Positions 23,787-30,173 of a stretch of DNA of 64,000 nucleotides are shown one piece after another. The stretch is from Altererythrobacter sp. (lineage in GTDB: Bacteria; Pseudomonadota; Alphaproteobacteria; Sphingomonadales; Sphingomonadaceae). The notes beneath the pieces were generated by a model. That model was not told the origin of the DNA. It did not search any database and saw only the letters and a list, made by a program, of their open reading frames with translations. Position numbers and translations under genes: made by a program. The first letter of the stretch is position 1; every line of letters starts with the position of its first letter. The DNA is taken from the NCBI GenBank assembly GCA_016793865.1, contig JAEULJ010000001.1, positions 975,496 to 1,039,495 of the forward strand. The letters run 5' to 3'.

Positions 23787-23932
23787 GGCCCGCGTTGTGC
23801 CGCGAAGCGCACGATACGAAAAGACCCCTCACGGCATGGGCACAGGGCACAGGGCACAGGGCATGGCGATGCGGATGCCTTGCGCGCTCACCCGTGCGCC
23901 GCTAGGGCCGCGCGCCTAGCCAGCAGGCATGC

Positions 23933-24023
23933 GGAGCGGTGGCCGAGTGGTCGAAGGCGCACGCCTGGAAAGTGTGTATGGGTCAAAAGCCCATCGTGGG
24001 TTCGAATCCCACCCGCTCCGCCA
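23933..24023 (+). tRNA. tRNA-Ser (anticodon GGA)
   Basis: Acceptor GGAGCGG (23933-23939) pairs with CCGCTCC (24013-24019), followed by discriminator G and an encoded CCA. The anticodon arm CACGC-CTGGAAA-GTGTG gives GGA. A long variable arm (ATGGG/CCCAT stem) and the GTTCGAA T-loop are as expected for serine. The accessory region starts right after it, so its 3' end is a likely integration site. Confidence 0.97.
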
Positions 24024-24130
24024 CGCAGTCTAAGCTATTGTTTTCGAATAATAGAGAGCGTCGGAAAGCCCGCAGTTCTGCGCCGTTTCAAGGCTAGAAG
24101 CAGTGCGGGAGAAGCGCTTATGTCGCCAAG

Positions 24131-24397
24131 GTGACGGGGGATTTGGGCCTTTTCTCTGGCGGGCATTTCGGTGCACTGGTTTTTGCCGGCAGGCGGCGCC
24201 AGTGCTTGCAATCAGTTCGGCTCGAAGAAGCGGCGCTGCTCGGCCCAGGCTATCCGAACCCCGACTTCGAGCGCTTCAACTACACGATCACGTATCTCCA
24301 CGGCGTCGATGGCGCCGAAGGCGATCTGGTCGAGGGTGAAACCATCATGGTCAAGAATGGGATGGTCTTCAATGTCCGCCGCTCTGATAAGTCTTGA
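24131..24397 (+). CDS. Small ubiquitin-like (beta-grasp) protein, start uncertain
   Basis: Up to 88 residues. The conserved part is the last 45 or so: RFNYTITYLHGVDGAEGDLV, VEGETIMVKNGMVFNVRRSD and the terminal KS. From memory this matches small Ubl proteins encoded before DUF6791-ThiF and DUF6527 genes. It is the predicted modifier adenylated by the next gene product. It ends in Ser, with no di-glycine. No ATG is in frame: GTG at 24131 or TTG at 24206 are candidates, and the first 40 codons look non-conserved. It overlaps the next gene by 26 bp. Ubl assignment comes from sequence pattern plus neighbours. Confidence 0.7.
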   Translation: MTGDLGLFSGGHFGALVFAGRRRQCLQSVRLEEAALLGPGYPNPDFERFNYTITYLHGVDGAEGDLVEGETIMVKNGMVFNVRRSDKS

Positions 24398-25562
24398 TCC
24401 CCACCTGAAGCGCCTCGCCGACGAGGGCTTCGAGATCGAGGTCGCCAACACCCATCTGGTGGTCCGCAGCGTCCCATACGTCGCCACAGACCGGACGCTG
24501 GCCAGGGGCGTCCTCACGTGTGCGCTGTCGATCGACGCTGCCACTGGCATGACGTCGTTGCCGCAGGCGGACCACACTATGTTCTTCGCGGGGACGCCAT
24601 GTCATCGCGACGGCACCCTCATGTCGAACATCATCGCCAGCTCGGGGAGTCAGCGGTTCGGGGAGATCGATGTCGATCACTACCTGTCGTCGAAACCCGA
24701 GGTCACGCAACGTTACGAGAACGTCTATGACAAGGTGGTCGCCTACGAACGGCTGATCGGGGGCGCCGCGCGCTCGCTCGACAAGTCCGCCAACGCGCGC
24801 ACCTATGCGCGCGGCATGGCTGCGAACGACGATAGTCCGTTCGCGATCCCCGATTCAGCGTCTGCCCGCTACCGGATCGGCAAGGTGAACCGGAAGCTGA
24901 TGGGAAGGGTCGCCATCATCGGGCTCGGCGGCACGGGGTCCTACCTGCTCGACCTTCTCGCGAAGACGTGGGTGACGGAGATCCACCTCTACGACGGCGA
25001 CCAGCTTCTGAATCACAATCTCTTCCGGTCGCCCGGGTCGCCCGAGCCGGCGCTGCTCAAGGAGTTCCCGCTGAAGGTGAACTACTATGCGCAGACCTAT
25101 GCCCGAATTCACGCGGGGATCACCCCGCATCCCGTGCGAGTGACGCGGGACAATGTCTACGAGCTCGCCGGGTTCGACTTCGTGTTCGTGTGCGTCGACA
25201 AGGGATCGTCCCGGCGGGCCATTGCCGAGGGGCTGCATCAGCTGGGGATCCCGTTCGTCGATACCGGTATCGGGGTCGGACTGGAGGAGGACTGTCTCGA
25301 CGGCTGCGCCCGTGCCACCTTCGTCCGGCCGGGAACCGATTGGGCTGACGTCGAGCGTCTACTGCCCTTCGGCGACGACGACGAGGAGGAGGACGAACTC
25401 TACCGCACGGATATCCAGATCGCCGCCGTGAACTCGCTGAACGCAATCATGGCGGTGATGCGCTGGAAGCGATGGGCGAACTACTTCCGCGACGAGCGGG
25501 GCGAGACGAACTCGGTCTACATGATCGAGGGCAACAGCATCTCGAATCGGGTGGCCAAATGA
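24372..25562 (+). CDS. E1-like DUF6791-ThiF protein
   Basis: A 396-residue protein. Residues 1-150 match DUF6791 (FEIEVANTHLVVRSVPYV, MFFAGTPCHRDGTLMSNI, VDHYLSSKP). The rest is a ThiF/E1 adenylation domain: VAIIGLGGTGSYLLDLLAKT for ATP, LYDGDQLLNHNLFRSPG holding the aspartate and arginine of E1 enzymes, and FVFVCVDKGSSRR. The predicted reaction is adenylation of the upstream Ubl C-terminus. Candidate catalytic cysteines are in EEDCLDGCAR and GTPCHRD; no CxxC zinc pairs are seen. No separate E2 is encoded, so DUF6791 may take that role (inference). Its stop overlaps the next start (ATGA). Confidence 0.9.
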   Translation: MSAALISLDPHLKRLADEGFEIEVANTHLVVRSVPYVATDRTLARGVLTCALSIDAATGMTSLPQADHTMFFAGTPCHRDGTLMSNIIASSGSQRFGEIDVDHYLSSKPEVTQRYENVYDKVVAYERLIGGAARSLDKSANARTYARGMAANDDSPFAIPDSASARYRIGKVNRKLMGRVAIIGLGGTGSYLLDLLAKTWVTEIHLYDGDQLLNHNLFRSPGSPEPALLKEFPLKVNYYAQTYARIHAGITPHPVRVTRDNVYELAGFDFVFVCVDKGSSRRAIAEGLHQLGIPFVDTGIGVGLEEDCLDGCARATFVRPGTDWADVERLLPFGDDDEEEDELYRTDIQIAAVNSLNAIMAVMRWKRWANYFRDERGETNSVYMIEGNSISNRVAK

Positions 25563-25987
25563 GCAGGGTTGACCGGCTGCGAACCGTGTTCGTGGCCGAC
25601 ATCCCCGAGAAGCTCGAGGATGGGATCCTCTATGTTTCAAGGGAAAGCCACGTCGCCCTCCATAATTGCGCATGCGGTTGCGGCGAGGAGGTATCGACGC
25701 CGCTGGTGCCGACCGAATACGCGCTCACGATGACCGGTGATGACGCTTCGATCTGGCCGTCGATAGGCAACCACGATTTCGGCTGCCGGTCCCATTACAT
25801 CATCGACCATGGTCGCATCGAATGGTCCGGGCGGATGTCGCGGGCGGCAATCGAGGCGGGTCGGCAGAAGGACCGCCTGCTCAAGCGACCGCCGGTCGAG
25901 CCGCCGCCTGTACGGCGACGCCGGCGTTTCATCGGACATCTTGCCGACTGGCTCGCCGCAACCTTTCGCAGGATCATCGGTCGCTGA
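25559..25987 (+). CDS. DUF6527 family zinc-cluster protein
   Basis: A 142-residue protein matching DUF6527. It shows LEDGILYVSRESHVALHNCA, then CACGCGEEVSTPL, and PSIGNHDFGCRSHYII. The CxCxC and CxxH groups probably bind zinc. A basic Arg/Pro-rich tail (PPPVRRRRRF) ends in an amphipathic helix. The family is known to me mainly as the partner of Ubl and DUF6791-ThiF genes; a peptidase or deconjugase role has been proposed, but no catalytic residue can be assigned here. Translationally coupled to the E1-like gene through an ATGA overlap. Confidence 0.88.
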   Translation: MSRVDRLRTVFVADIPEKLEDGILYVSRESHVALHNCACGCGEEVSTPLVPTEYALTMTGDDASIWPSIGNHDFGCRSHYIIDHGRIEWSGRMSRAAIEAGRQKDRLLKRPPVEPPPVRRRRRFIGHLADWLAATFRRIIGR

Positions 25988-26606
25988 TCAACCATCGACC
26001 GCGGGGCCTGCCTGGCCCAGCGGATCGACACGTCGTCGCGGGCGCCTAGAGGCTCGCAAACGTCGGGAGCGGCGAGGGCCACGGACGCGGCGAGTAGAAA
26101 CGGCTGCGGACGGAATCGCCATCACCCGCGACAGGCGATCAGACCGGTCGTGAAAGGATAGTTCTCACGGGGAAGTCGTCGGTCAGGTCCTTGGCCGCCC
26201 GCTCTCTTCCGGGCACGGGCGGGTGTCGCTAAGTGACCGCATGTGGGTCTCAGCGGCTCCGCCAGCGATCGACGCCAATGTCCGCTTCGCGCCCCCTGGC
26301 GGCCAATAACTGCCAGTCCGCTACCGGCCCAAATTCTGTCGAGAACTGCAGTCCACGACCATGGCGGGTCTCGGGCATCAGTCAGTGGAAGGCCCCTTGC
26401 GACTGTTGGGGCGCTATGCTGCCCTGCTCTGCATGAACGGATTGGGTTTGTTTTCCGCTAGCCCGCTTTTGTTTGAGGTTTGCCAACGTGGCTTGTCAGA
26501 AATTGCAATCGGATAGCTCGACATCAGGTAGACGACGATGCTCGTCGCCAGCGTCCCGGTCGGTGTAAACTCATCGGTGGCGTGCTCGAAGGGTGCACCC
26601 AAATCC
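25988..26606. other. 619 bp without a recognisable gene
   Basis: Between the Ubl cassette and the minus-strand cassette. Short open frames on both strands have no family-like sequence and no convincing ribosome sites. The part from about 26420 to 26540 is visibly richer in A and T than its surroundings. It may hold decayed genes. Confidence 0.5.
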
Positions 26607-27155
26607 CTAGGCCAACCGGGCCGCCTCCGCTCCCAGCTCGTCGAAATATCGCGCCAGCGCGTCGGCGGCGTCGTCCGACAGCGCTATGAACGTCCGACGC
26701 TTGTCCTGGGCGTCCTCATGACGCACGAGCAGGCGCATCGCGGTCATCTGCGCGATCCAGCGAAGGGCGGTGGTCGCGGGCACCGCGGCGGCGATGCAGA
26801 GCGAGGTGACCGATACCTGGCGGTGGTCGGCGCGCGCCGCAGCCAGATCGAGCAGGATGTCCCAGGCGGGGTCCGCGAACAGTTCGCTCTCGAAATAGCG
26901 CTCGCGCAATCGGCGTTGACGCACGATCCGCTGGATCAGGCGCGGGTCCGGCAAGGGCGGCCGCGGCCGCCGGAGATAGTCGCCCTTCGGTGGCGGCGCG
27001 GATCGGGGCGGGGTTGCCAGCCACTGAGTCATCGCGGCTTCGGGATCGGCACCAAGCGGCAATGCAAGGCCTTCGATCTGGTTGGCGAGCCTTTCCACCT
27101 GCTCCCTCAGGCGGAGCACCTGGTCGACCAGCTCCTGCGTGTTCATATCGCTCAT
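26607..27155 (-). CDS. Winged-helix DNA-binding protein, MarR-like
   Basis: A 182-residue protein. The N-terminus (TQELVDQVLRLREQVERLAN) is a predicted coiled coil, followed by a Pro-rich stretch. A winged-helix domain follows from about residue 105: WDILLDLAAARADHRQVSVT, LCIAAAVPATTALRWIAQM, LLVRHEDAQDKRRTFIALSD. It resembles MarR-type regulators. The ATG at 27155 overlaps the RadC-like stop (ATGA), so it is the last gene of the six-gene cassette. Targets unknown; autoregulation of the cassette is possible. Confidence 0.8.
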   Translation of the reverse strand: MSDMNTQELVDQVLRLREQVERLANQIEGLALPLGADPEAAMTQWLATPPRSAPPPKGDYLRRPRPPLPDPRLIQRIVRQRRLRERYFESELFADPAWDILLDLAAARADHRQVSVTSLCIAAAVPATTALRWIAQMTAMRLLVRHEDAQDKRRTFIALSDDAADALARYFDELGAEAARLA

Positions 27156-27754
27156 AGTTCGCCCGCGCGGGCCATGCTGTAGCAGCCATGCGCCGTAACG
27201 ATGAGATGGTCGCTTAACTCGCATTCGAGTGCTTGCAACACCTGCGCGAGCCGGCGGGTCGCCGCCCGGTCGAACGCGCTGGGTTGCAGCGATCCGGATG
27301 GATGGTTGTGCGCCAGGATCAGCCCCCGGGCGCCGAGATCGAGTATCCTGCCGATCAGGGGGCGAAAGGCGATCTCGACATCGGCGCTCAGGCCGCTGGC
27401 CAAGCATTCCGCGGCAATGAAGTGCCCGGTCTTATCGACGAACACGCCCAGCAATCGCTCGTCTTCGGCATGGCCCAGCGTGCGCTGGAGGTATCCGAGA
27501 AACGGAGGACTTGCCGTGTCCACGATCTGTCCCTCGAGCGCATTCAGCGAGCTGTAGTCGGCGAGCTCGCGGGCCGCGGCGATCAGATCGGCCAGTTCTC
27601 TGTGCGAGGCGAGGGTCTCGCCAAGCGATTCGCGTGAGGCCGCAAGCGCCCGCGCGGGCGAGCCATATGTGGCGATCAGCCGGCCCGCGATGGCCAGGGC
27701 GTCGGCTCCGGCGAATGGGCTAAGCCGCTCCGCCAATTGGGGTACGGCCCCCAC
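27152..27754 (-). CDS. RadC-type JAMM (JAB) protein
   Basis: About 200 residues with a RadC-like layout. A helical N-terminal part (IAGRLIATYGSPARALAASR, helix-hairpin-helix-like) leads into a JAMM domain with the metal motif AHNHPSGSLQPSAFD (HxH plus aspartate) and LSDHLIVTAHGCYSMARAGE. RadC proteins of this type are common on mobile elements, with no settled biochemical role; JAMM proteins of other groups are isopeptidases. The GTG at 27754 is a provisional start, and the frame is open to 27919, overlapping the upstream membrane-protein gene. Confidence 0.85.
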   Translation of the reverse strand: MGAVPQLAERLSPFAGADALAIAGRLIATYGSPARALAASRESLGETLASHRELADLIAAARELADYSSLNALEGQIVDTASPPFLGYLQRTLGHAEDERLLGVFVDKTGHFIAAECLASGLSADVEIAFRPLIGRILDLGARGLILAHNHPSGSLQPSAFDRAATRRLAQVLQALECELSDHLIVTAHGCYSMARAGEL

Positions 27755-28206
27755 GATCGCGAGCGCCGGACGTGCGCCATCAGCCCAACCGCCAGGAACG
27801 CGATGGCCAGATAGAATGTCGAAAGATTGAGGATCGCATAGGCGAGCGGCGACACTGCGGCAGTCGTCCGCTCGGCGATATGCGTGATCAAGGCGGTGAG
27901 CTGAACGCCTGCCATCCATAGGGGATAAATCCTGTTGGCTTTAAGCGCGACGGCCGTCAGGGCGGCGAAGGTCGCAAGATCGATGACGAAATAGGCAAGG
28001 CCTGCTGTCGCGAAGCCTGAAAGCCCCCAGACAGAATCGAACCCGCTCGCGACGAGCTGCTGCGCGCGCGCGAGAAGGATCGCCGTGAGCAGTATGCCGG
28101 CGCACCACCGTTCGGGAGATGCGCCCCGGACGAGTGCCAATGCGAACAGGCCAGTCACCGCGAGGGTTTGGACCGACCCGCGATTGGTCCACAGGAGTTC
28201 GATCAT
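27676..28206 (-). CDS. Integral membrane protein of the RadC cassette
   Basis: A 176-residue protein with five probable membrane helices, for example SVQTLAVTGLFALALVRGAS, GFATAGLAYFVIDLATFAAL, LWMAGVQLTALITHIAE and AILNLSTFYLAIAFLAVGLM. The last 25 residues are basic and polar. Its 3' end overlaps the start region of the RadC-like gene. No family recognised. The layout resembles a small sensor or channel, but nothing catalytic is visible. Confidence 0.7.
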   Translation of the reverse strand: MIELLWTNRGSVQTLAVTGLFALALVRGASPERWCAGILLTAILLARAQQLVASGFDSVWGLSGFATAGLAYFVIDLATFAALTAVALKANRIYPLWMAGVQLTALITHIAERTTAAVSPLAYAILNLSTFYLAIAFLAVGLMAHVRRSRSWGPYPNWRSGLAHSPEPTPWPSRAG

Positions 28207-29422: not shown

Positions 29423-29769
29423 TGCGAGTCAAATCACCAGCCGATTGTGACGACGACCTGTGAGCAATGACCTCCAGTACGCGCGATCACAGTCACGCCG
29501 GCACCGCACTATCCGACCGAAGCCGCGCGCGACGCATGATCGGCCGGCGTTTGCTCGCTCGGGCTCAGTCCTTCGGTGAACGGTTAGCGGTATCTTAACC
29601 ATGTATTTCATTCTCGATAGTCATTAACGGACTTTCTGCGGTAGGCCCGGAATTTTTCCGGGCATTGCCCGCGCTCCGCTTCGCCGGCTGCCGGCGATTC
29701 TCCGGGTGCGCCGAATGACTGCGCGATGAGGGTCGCGCCCCACACGACGTCGAAGCCGAGGCGTCAGGC

Positions 29770-30173
29770 GGCTTCCGCAATTCGAGAGACGCTGCCCCGG
29801 ATGCGACCAGATATTGGATCGATTCCGGCACGAAGGCGGGGATCAGGATAACGAAGAGCAGCGACGCCGCGCCTGCGAGAAGGAAGAGACTTGGCCAGCC
29901 ATAGAGCGGCAACAGCGATGCTGCGGCAAATCCGCCGACAATGCCGCTCGCGCGGAGAGCGGCCCACATGATCGTCGCGATGCTTCCGCGCAGGCGCGCC
30001 TGAACGCATTCGCTCGTCAGCCTGACGATCGCGGTGCCCGCGTCCCCAATGCCGATCCCGGTCGCGAGGCGGCACAGCGCAAGGGTCCTGAAATCGTTGG
30101 CGCAGGAGGCGAGAAGCGATGCGATGCCGAATAGCGTGCCGCACAAAATGTCCGTCGTCAGATCATTCGGCAC
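29770..30173 (-). pseudogene. Truncated MFS transporter, aromatic-acid symporter type
   Basis: About 134 codons of a major-facilitator protein: LCRLATGIGIGDAGTAIVRL, TSECVQARLRGSIATIMWA and VILIPAFVPESIQYLVASGA, matching helices 3-6 of the AAHS group. The first helices are missing. After the PESIQYL region the frame runs into unrelated Arg/Ser/Pro-rich sequence, so the second half of a normal ~440-residue transporter is absent. It is a remnant at the edge of the accessory region. Confidence 0.8.

Follow-up and report, generated by a model that had tools for sequence, protein, structure and literature searches.

Does the short ubiquitin-like (Ubl) gene in front of an E1-like enzyme of Altererythrobacter sp. 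belong to a compact conjugation system, or is it what is left of a larger one? The locus lies in a 64,000-nucleotide stretch of contig JAEULJ010000001.1 (positions 975,496 to 1,039,495, forward strand; the whole stretch is called the window here), in which three plus-strand frames follow a tRNA-Ser(GGA) gene: open reading frame 1 (ORF1), which begins 107 bases from the tRNA 3' end, a gene for an E1-like protein with a DUF6791 and a ThiF domain (hereafter E1), and a gene for a DUF6527 protein. ORF1 overlaps the E1 gene by 26 bp, and the E1 gene overlaps the DUF6527 gene by 4 bp. An initial annotation took these genes for a translationally coupled cassette in which ORF1 encoded a complete, 88-residue Ubl. 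Although the coordinates, the overlaps and the gene set itself were confirmed, the completeness of the Ubl was not, and we conclude, with a probability of about 0.85, that a known mobile operon, encoding a multi-ubiquitin protein, an E1 with DUF6791 and a DUF6527 protein, is represented here by a 5'-truncated and probably inactive copy. Since most of the 5' part of the small modifier gene is gone, the "compact" version is probably a broken ordinary one.

Truncation of the Ubl gene behind tRNA-Ser

Profile searches place only the latter part of ORF1 in the Ubl family. Against Pfam Multi_ubiq, ORF1 matched profile positions 27-68 of 69 only (24.7 bits, 0.2 bits above the cut-off of 24.5), which contradicts its description as a small beta-grasp protein; an intact single-domain Ubl of the family (84 residues given) covered positions 1-68. 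A profile of the family Ubl matched ORF1 from residue 36 onward only; residues 1-35 lie outside the match, and the conserved first hairpin and helix are missing. When the source genome was searched with a profile of the intact Ubl, the single match was at ORF1 and spanned positions 171-219 of 219, so that ORF1 keeps 49 of the 219 model positions (the last 48-49 residues), and this profile detected no second Ubl piece in that genome. A Multi_ubiq search of the same genome returned nothing, ORF1 included, which says little because its positive controls were silent as well.

A scan of named genomes gave at least eight relatives, of which at least seven have E1s 78-85% identical to that of the window. 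The near relatives listed at this level are the Rhizobiales metagenome-assembled genome (MAG) 65-9, Niveispirillum lacus, Sphingomonas parva, Sphingomonas sp. Y57, Novosphingobium sp. FKTRR1, Rhizobium croatiense and Novosphingobium sp. 32-60-15; the eighth relative listed is an Akkermansiaceae MAG with an E1 41% identical. The Ubl gene is full length in 7/7 of the near relatives listed (219-286 codons, counted from the first start codon), so the 88-residue Ubl is an artefact of truncation. Similarity between the window and each of these seven in blastn sets in abruptly at 24250/24251 and extends over 1423-1765 nt at 74-79% identity. Compared in ungapped 30-nt blocks, the window and the relatives share 21-28 of 30 bases downstream of the break and 5-17 of 30 upstream of it, whereas the relatives compared with one relative locus (L073) share 20-30 of 30 per block across the same point.

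No frame of the orphan stretch 24024-24250, from which the first 40 codons of ORF1 come, matches a Ubl profile built without the window. A frameshift behind the odd start of ORF1 was rejected on this ground, and is also disfavored by the nucleotide alignment, which upstream of the break for the most part does not rise above chance. The case for truncation does not rest on length alone, since complete single-domain Ubls of 80-101 residues occur in 9 of the 20 relative loci found in the same order. (A DUF6791 search of 296 genomes of the order was positive in 20, the window's own included; the 19 others contribute 20 loci, one genome having two.) As judged from these alignments, ORF1 is not a small beta-grasp protein, and instead combines unrelated DNA next to the tRNA with the tail of a Ubl that has three repeats and ~219 residues.

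Several observations weigh against a simple loss of this kind. Upstream of the break, the block 24191-24220 reaches 17/30 identities, and when the last 60 bases are aligned globally, two of the seven relatives score among the best 8-13% of random segments of the window. Alignments of 90 or 120 bases do no better than random segments; in the comparison with shuffles one relative, L074, is in the top 10% at all three lengths. We read this residual similarity as chance, and it is the weakest point of the case for truncation. Moreover, pairwise ratios of nonsynonymous to synonymous substitution rates (dN/dS), which are rough because synonymous sites are near saturation, were 0.04-0.09 for the E1 of the window against seven relatives (0.05-0.09 for the relative pairs computed) and 0.09-0.17 for DUF6527 against six relatives (0.18-0.22 for the relative pairs computed), as expected of ordinary purifying selection without decay, and they are also low over the Ubl remnant (0.035-0.103). 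Such selection on the cassette indicates either that the truncation is young or that the proteins are still in use. The latter could mean that the E1 and the DUF6527 protein are kept for another Ubl, or for some other reaction, in trans, in keeping with two intact frames under purifying selection; we consider this unlikely, since the family profile finds only the truncated Ubl in the source genome.

Among the genomes searched, the DNA at the junction is particular to this one. In 16 of 19 same-genus loci similarity to the window reaches the tRNA 3' end (24023-24027), and in no case does it continue downstream. The orphan stretch has no other copy in the source genome (short weak matches only), gives only matches of 20-46 nt in 149 genomes of the family and is absent from the 60 same-genus genomes searched, and a 35-nt pattern taken from it is in no other of the 296 order genomes; a Leisingera plasmid matches it at 83% over ~50 nt, in unannotated DNA. 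Among the 20 order genomes with DUF6791, only that of the window is from the same genus. A join created by misassembly, the true locus carrying an intact Ubl and the RES-Xre pair described below, would fit both the clean break just after the tRNA gene and an orphan stretch seen in no other genome searched. However, the assembly is 99.72% complete in 9 contigs and holds neither the missing Ubl part nor a RES gene elsewhere (no match to the near-clade RES at 1e-5), which makes this explanation quite improbable. Still less credible is a working, newly formed chimeric Ubl in which the 40 orphan residues replace the lost half-domain and the E1 still activates the product: its frame is open, with the conserved C-terminus, the 26-bp coupling and low dN/dS over the remnant, and single-domain Ubls of its size exist in the family, but only half a beta-grasp domain is homologous, neither residues 1-35 nor any upstream frame supplies the rest, and inspection by eye shows no ribosome site at a suitable distance from the GTG start.

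The truncated copy is therefore best pictured as the product of a deletion or rearrangement beside tRNA-Ser that would have removed everything upstream of 24251, or ~170 of the 219 Ubl residues, together with the divergent RES-Xre pair if this copy once had it. What is left over would be an intact E1 and an intact DUF6527 protein that lack a usable modifier. Phage-like integration at the tRNA, also considered, gains no support from the window, in which no repeat of the tRNA 3' end marks a right end; integrase genes were not searched for. Only three tRNA genes were seen at the 28 other loci, so the tRNA is not part of the system. A sigma-70 promoter scan of 23850-26200 returned a single site, on the opposite strand, about as many as expected from shuffles.

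Table 1. Features of the window and RES-Xre pairs at relative loci (prefix L, coordinates of the respective locus)
Feature	Position	Strand	Remark
tRNA-Ser(GGA)	23933-24023	+	ARAGORN
Orphan DNA between tRNA-Ser and Ubl remnant	24024-24250	.	No recognizable Ubl origin
ORF1, 88 codons	24131-24397	+	GTG start; frame earlier taken as complete Ubl
Ubl remnant	24251-24397	+	Last 48 codons and stop of a multi-ubiquitin gene with three repeats, encoding the C-terminal half of the third beta-grasp repeat
E1-like adenylating enzyme, DUF6791-ThiF	24372-25562	+	NCBIfam PRK06153 family; intact
DUF6791 domain of E1	24402-24854	+	Pfam PF20590
ThiF adenylation domain of E1, matched stretch	24906-25271	+	Pfam PF00899
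DUF6527 protein	25559-25987	+	Pfam PF20137; likely zinc site
RES-Xre pair	L070:4134-5229
RES-Xre pair	L071:4135-5248
RES-Xre pair	L072:4138-5224
RES-Xre pair	L073:4138-5224
RES-Xre pair	L074:4138-5224
RES-Xre pair	L075:3863-4955
RES-Xre pair	L076:2941-4027
RES-Xre pair	L087:6130-7222
RES-Xre pair	L091:4134-5223

Two minus-strand frames lie downstream of the cassette. A RadC-type JAB protein (27155-27919; Pfam RadC, 1.8e-26) is encoded ~1.2 kb away and shows no sign of cassette membership. A 192-codon frame (29598-30173) has a partial MFS_1 match only (profile positions 67-175 of 347) and resembles a transporter fragment, so the DNA after the cassette may hold more broken genes.

The E1-like enzyme and the DUF6527 protein

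Both genes downstream of the Ubl remnant are intact, and Pfam searches recovered the domains that had been proposed for them, DUF6791 (E 7.7e-38) together with ThiF (6.9e-13) for the E1, and DUF6527 (1.9e-21) for the product of the last gene. The E1 also belongs to NCBIfam PRK06153, a "hypothetical protein" family (497.8 bits; cut-off 340). Its active site, which the initial annotation called intact, contains both GLGGTGS and DGDQLLNHNLFR, and wherever at least 90% of 28 relative rows (27 distinct; L075 trimmed to its last 394 residues) agree on a residue, the enzyme has it too. Residues identical in 28/28 rows are H68, G74, P76 and G81 and, in the adenylation motifs, G184, G186, G187, G189, D208, D210, H215 and R219.

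Whether DUF6791 could act as the conjugating module, the role originally assigned to it, was examined by sequence and by predicted structure. No cysteine is invariant in this domain or elsewhere in the E1; directly after P76, 17 of the 28 rows have Cys, 6 have His, 4 have Tyr and 1 has Ser. Comparison of DUF6791 by hhalign with the E2 part of five E1-E2 proteins (from a PF14461 search, 5/296 genomes, that served this comparison only) gave a probability of 0.2% at low power, and an E2 assignment is thus not supported by sequence at this depth. In an AlphaFold2 model of residues 1-168 (11 sequences; predicted local distance difference test score, pLDDT, 78.6; predicted template modeling score, pTM, 0.73), helices and four strands lead up to the H68-G74-P76 motif and are followed by a hairpin and a long helix; a first E1 model (8 sequences) was poor (pLDDT 48.5) and was discarded. 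Foldseek searches with the domain model gave nothing at E <= 0.001 in either the PDB or a viral library. The first three PDB rows were Atg3 (2dyt, 5.7e-3) and Atg10 (4ebr, 0.087; 3vx7, 0.21), and E2-fold chains, as recognized by title, were 11 of the best 50 of 409 matches, with TM-scores <=0.35 and no E2 base rate computed for the library. Atg3 and Atg10 carry an HPC active-site motif. The predicted fold of DUF6791 thus weakly resembles Atg3/Atg10-type E2s, and this sub-threshold likeness is compatible with a conjugating role, but the lack of an invariant cysteine and the negative profile-profile comparison weaken the assignment.

Residues C37, C39, C41, C76 and H79 of the DUF6527 protein are invariant in 17/17 aligned sequences and likely form a zinc site. 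The alignment holds 17 of 23 readable sequences (L052, L054, L056, L058, L066 and L069 left out), and L070, which has N bases inside the gene, is excluded from these counts. A profile search of the PDB with this protein gave no match up to E 1.

Adenylation of a beta-grasp protein at its C-terminus is the established reaction of ThiF-fold E1s. By analogy with that family, the ThiF domain of an intact relative would adenylate the C-terminus of its Ubl, which usually ends in serine, and transfer of the Ubl to a target would follow with no separate E2 involved. DUF6791 would position the Ubl or the acceptor, and the zinc protein, DUF6527, would choose the targets.

The intact family and its RES-Xre neighbors

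In 20/20 relative order loci the E1 gene is immediately preceded by a Ubl frame, and in 16/20 it is followed by a DUF6527 gene (one of the four misses, L051, is cut by a contig end), so the three genes do co-occur in other genomes. In 24 of 29 rows (28 distinct, the window and one duplicate included) the overlap between the Ubl and E1 genes is exactly 26 bp and opens with an in-frame E1 start codon. This overlap is kept down to E1s ~31% identical to that of the window and is a family feature rather than chance; the C-terminal residue of the Ubl is serine in 28 of the 29. Loci L060 and L076 are one and the same contig of 9203 bases, of which L010 is also part.

The family is found on mobile DNA. 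The E1 occurs in 148 of 72,556 plasmid records, 70 of the 148 being predicted conjugative, and in 0 of 50,697 phage records; a scan of IMG/VR found none with a single protein as query and six with an alignment, two of them full length. On one IMG/VR contig, Ubl-E1-DUF6527 is followed immediately by another short Ubl-like frame, encoded on the other strand (L094:6522-6749). In the six plasmid regions viewed, the neighbors of the E1 include no separate E2 or peptidase gene, as far as can be told from a gene table that is incomplete and holds hypothetical proteins. On a plasmid of Rhizobium sp. 32-5/1 (L091) the annotation splits the E1 into three entries (two as DUF6791, one as a hypothetical protein), and another copy of the clade thus seems broken.

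In every near relative listed, a RES toxin gene and an Xre/MbcA antitoxin gene lie directly upstream of, and divergent from, the three-repeat Ubl gene. A search of 36 relative loci and the window found this pair, always in that arrangement, in ten rows, nine of them distinct (seven near relatives plus a duplicate, and two Rhizobium plasmids), and it was absent from the other 26 rows and from the window. The pairs at L075 and L087 score identically and may stem from one recent transfer. Upstream genes in the six plasmid regions were a helix-turn-helix (HTH) protein with ImmA/IrrE in two, WYL in one, RES and Xre in two and none of these in one. Two plasmid records contain RES at 60-80% identity, and exactly these two also contain the E1 at 60-80%. 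Of the RES matches in the 296 order genomes just one exceeds 34% identity, and it adjoins the Ubl operon (genome G209, same contig as L076). We found no literature linking RES with ubiquitin-like systems, and the available part of PMC9503650 contains no such link.

Other genes near the cassette in relatives include a helicase strongly matching PADLOC ZacC (1128 bits) upstream of it in Niveispirillum lacus (L071:816-3992) and UvrD-type helicases with GajB matches at L073:7712-10363 and L075:10212-12911. These ZacC-type and UvrD-type helicases suggest defense-rich surroundings in some relatives.

A doubtful reading of the intact near clade is that RES-Xre, Ubl, E1 and DUF6527 form one five-gene unit. 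DUF6791 would then be a highly diverged Atg3/Atg10-like E2 fused to the E1, with a transfer site (Cys in 17 of 28, otherwise His, Tyr or Ser) that need not be cysteine, and a DNA-binding Xre with an NAD-consuming RES would replace the HTH and ImmA/IrrE regulator, coupling Ubl activity to toxin release. If so, the window would be a natural knock-out of both. Irrespective of this reading, recognition of the truncation removes a false lead, as no minimal one-domain Ubl system is shown at this locus, and the intact relatives (Sphingomonas parva, Niveispirillum lacus, Novosphingobium and Rhizobium) are the better and more interesting objects. Since their operons combine a Ubl ending in serine and an adjoining RES-Xre pair with no E2 or peptidase gene in the regions viewed, the mode of transfer and a possible link to the toxin pair are directly addressable there.

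Comparison with known systems

The gene set was already listed by Iyer, Burroughs and Aravind in 2006 (PMC1779556, Table 1, row 6e), where it comprises a multi-repeat Ubl, an E1 with an extra N-terminal domain and a metal-binding protein Y, and is described as horizontally mobile. The tandem or solo Ub-like domain of row 6e is present in 7/7 near relatives listed and not in the truncated ORF1, whereas the E1 with a JAB or other N-terminal domain agrees with DUF6791-ThiF of the window. A "domain X" replaces the JAB domain in some E1s of that row; we infer that DUF6791 is domain X, and DUF6527 may be protein Y. The metal signature printed in row 6e (C-x3-C-x35-38-H-x2-C) and that of DUF6527 here (C-x3-C-x34-C-x2-H) are very close in spacing but differ at the end, where C-x2-H takes the place of H-x2-C. 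The row also lists an inactive E2/RWD-like protein, and none is annotated in the six plasmid operons as far as their incomplete gene table goes. The open-access literature searched contained no mention of DUF6791 or DUF6527 by name and no phage-defense evidence for this gene set.

Better-studied conjugation systems resemble the cassette in part. BIL operons (BilABCD) contain separate genes for an E2 and a JAB peptidase. In the 20 cassette-bearing genomes Prok-JAB matches 39 places (controls positive), not one of them closer than 90 kb to the cassette, in agreement with the earlier statement that the operon has no JAMM peptidase; a Prok-E2_E search matched 0/20 genomes, but no positive control matched either. 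CBASS Cap2 and the PADLOC E1-E2 proteins likewise have ThiF preceded by another domain, but DUF6791 did not align with the E2 part of the five E1-E2 proteins compared, at the low power noted above, and Pfam detected no cyclase among the three genes. PADLOC itself returned weak E1-E2 matches only for the E1 (best 6.8e-8, residues 160-290, the ThiF part) and none for ORF1 or the DUF6527 protein.

The E1 of the window is related to BubC. Bub operons have separate E2 and peptidase partners, and CapP is an ImmA/IrrE peptidase. A profile of the E1 built from 18 rows gave Citrobacter BubCD, known from structures 9ea4 and 9ea5, as best PDB match (9ea4, E 2.1e-12), confined to the adenylation domain, and DUF6791 occupies the place of a different N-terminal part of BubCD. 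The HTH and ImmA/IrrE genes (two) or WYL gene (one) upstream in plasmid relatives resemble the CapH+CapP and CapW regulators described in the text available of PMC13373217. The same text presents Bub operons as a putative immune family for which phage protection has so far not been demonstrated, and the anti-phage function proposed in the initial annotation is thus unsupported.

Finally, the multi-ubiquitin structure 9cd2 covers the intact three-repeat Ubl (positions 10-219 of 219, E 1.6e-28), of which the window keeps only the last 48-49 positions, and the Synechocystis pSYSX cassette likewise consists of genes for a multiubiquitin, an E1 and a metal-binding protein (PMC4963859). That cassette differs in having an E2 gene. 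In the available part of the same paper, toxin-antitoxin-like pairs with COG2856/DUF955 adjoin 70% of PF14452 loci and RES-Xre is not named, whereas in the near clade of the window RES-Xre stands in place of the DUF955 pairs.

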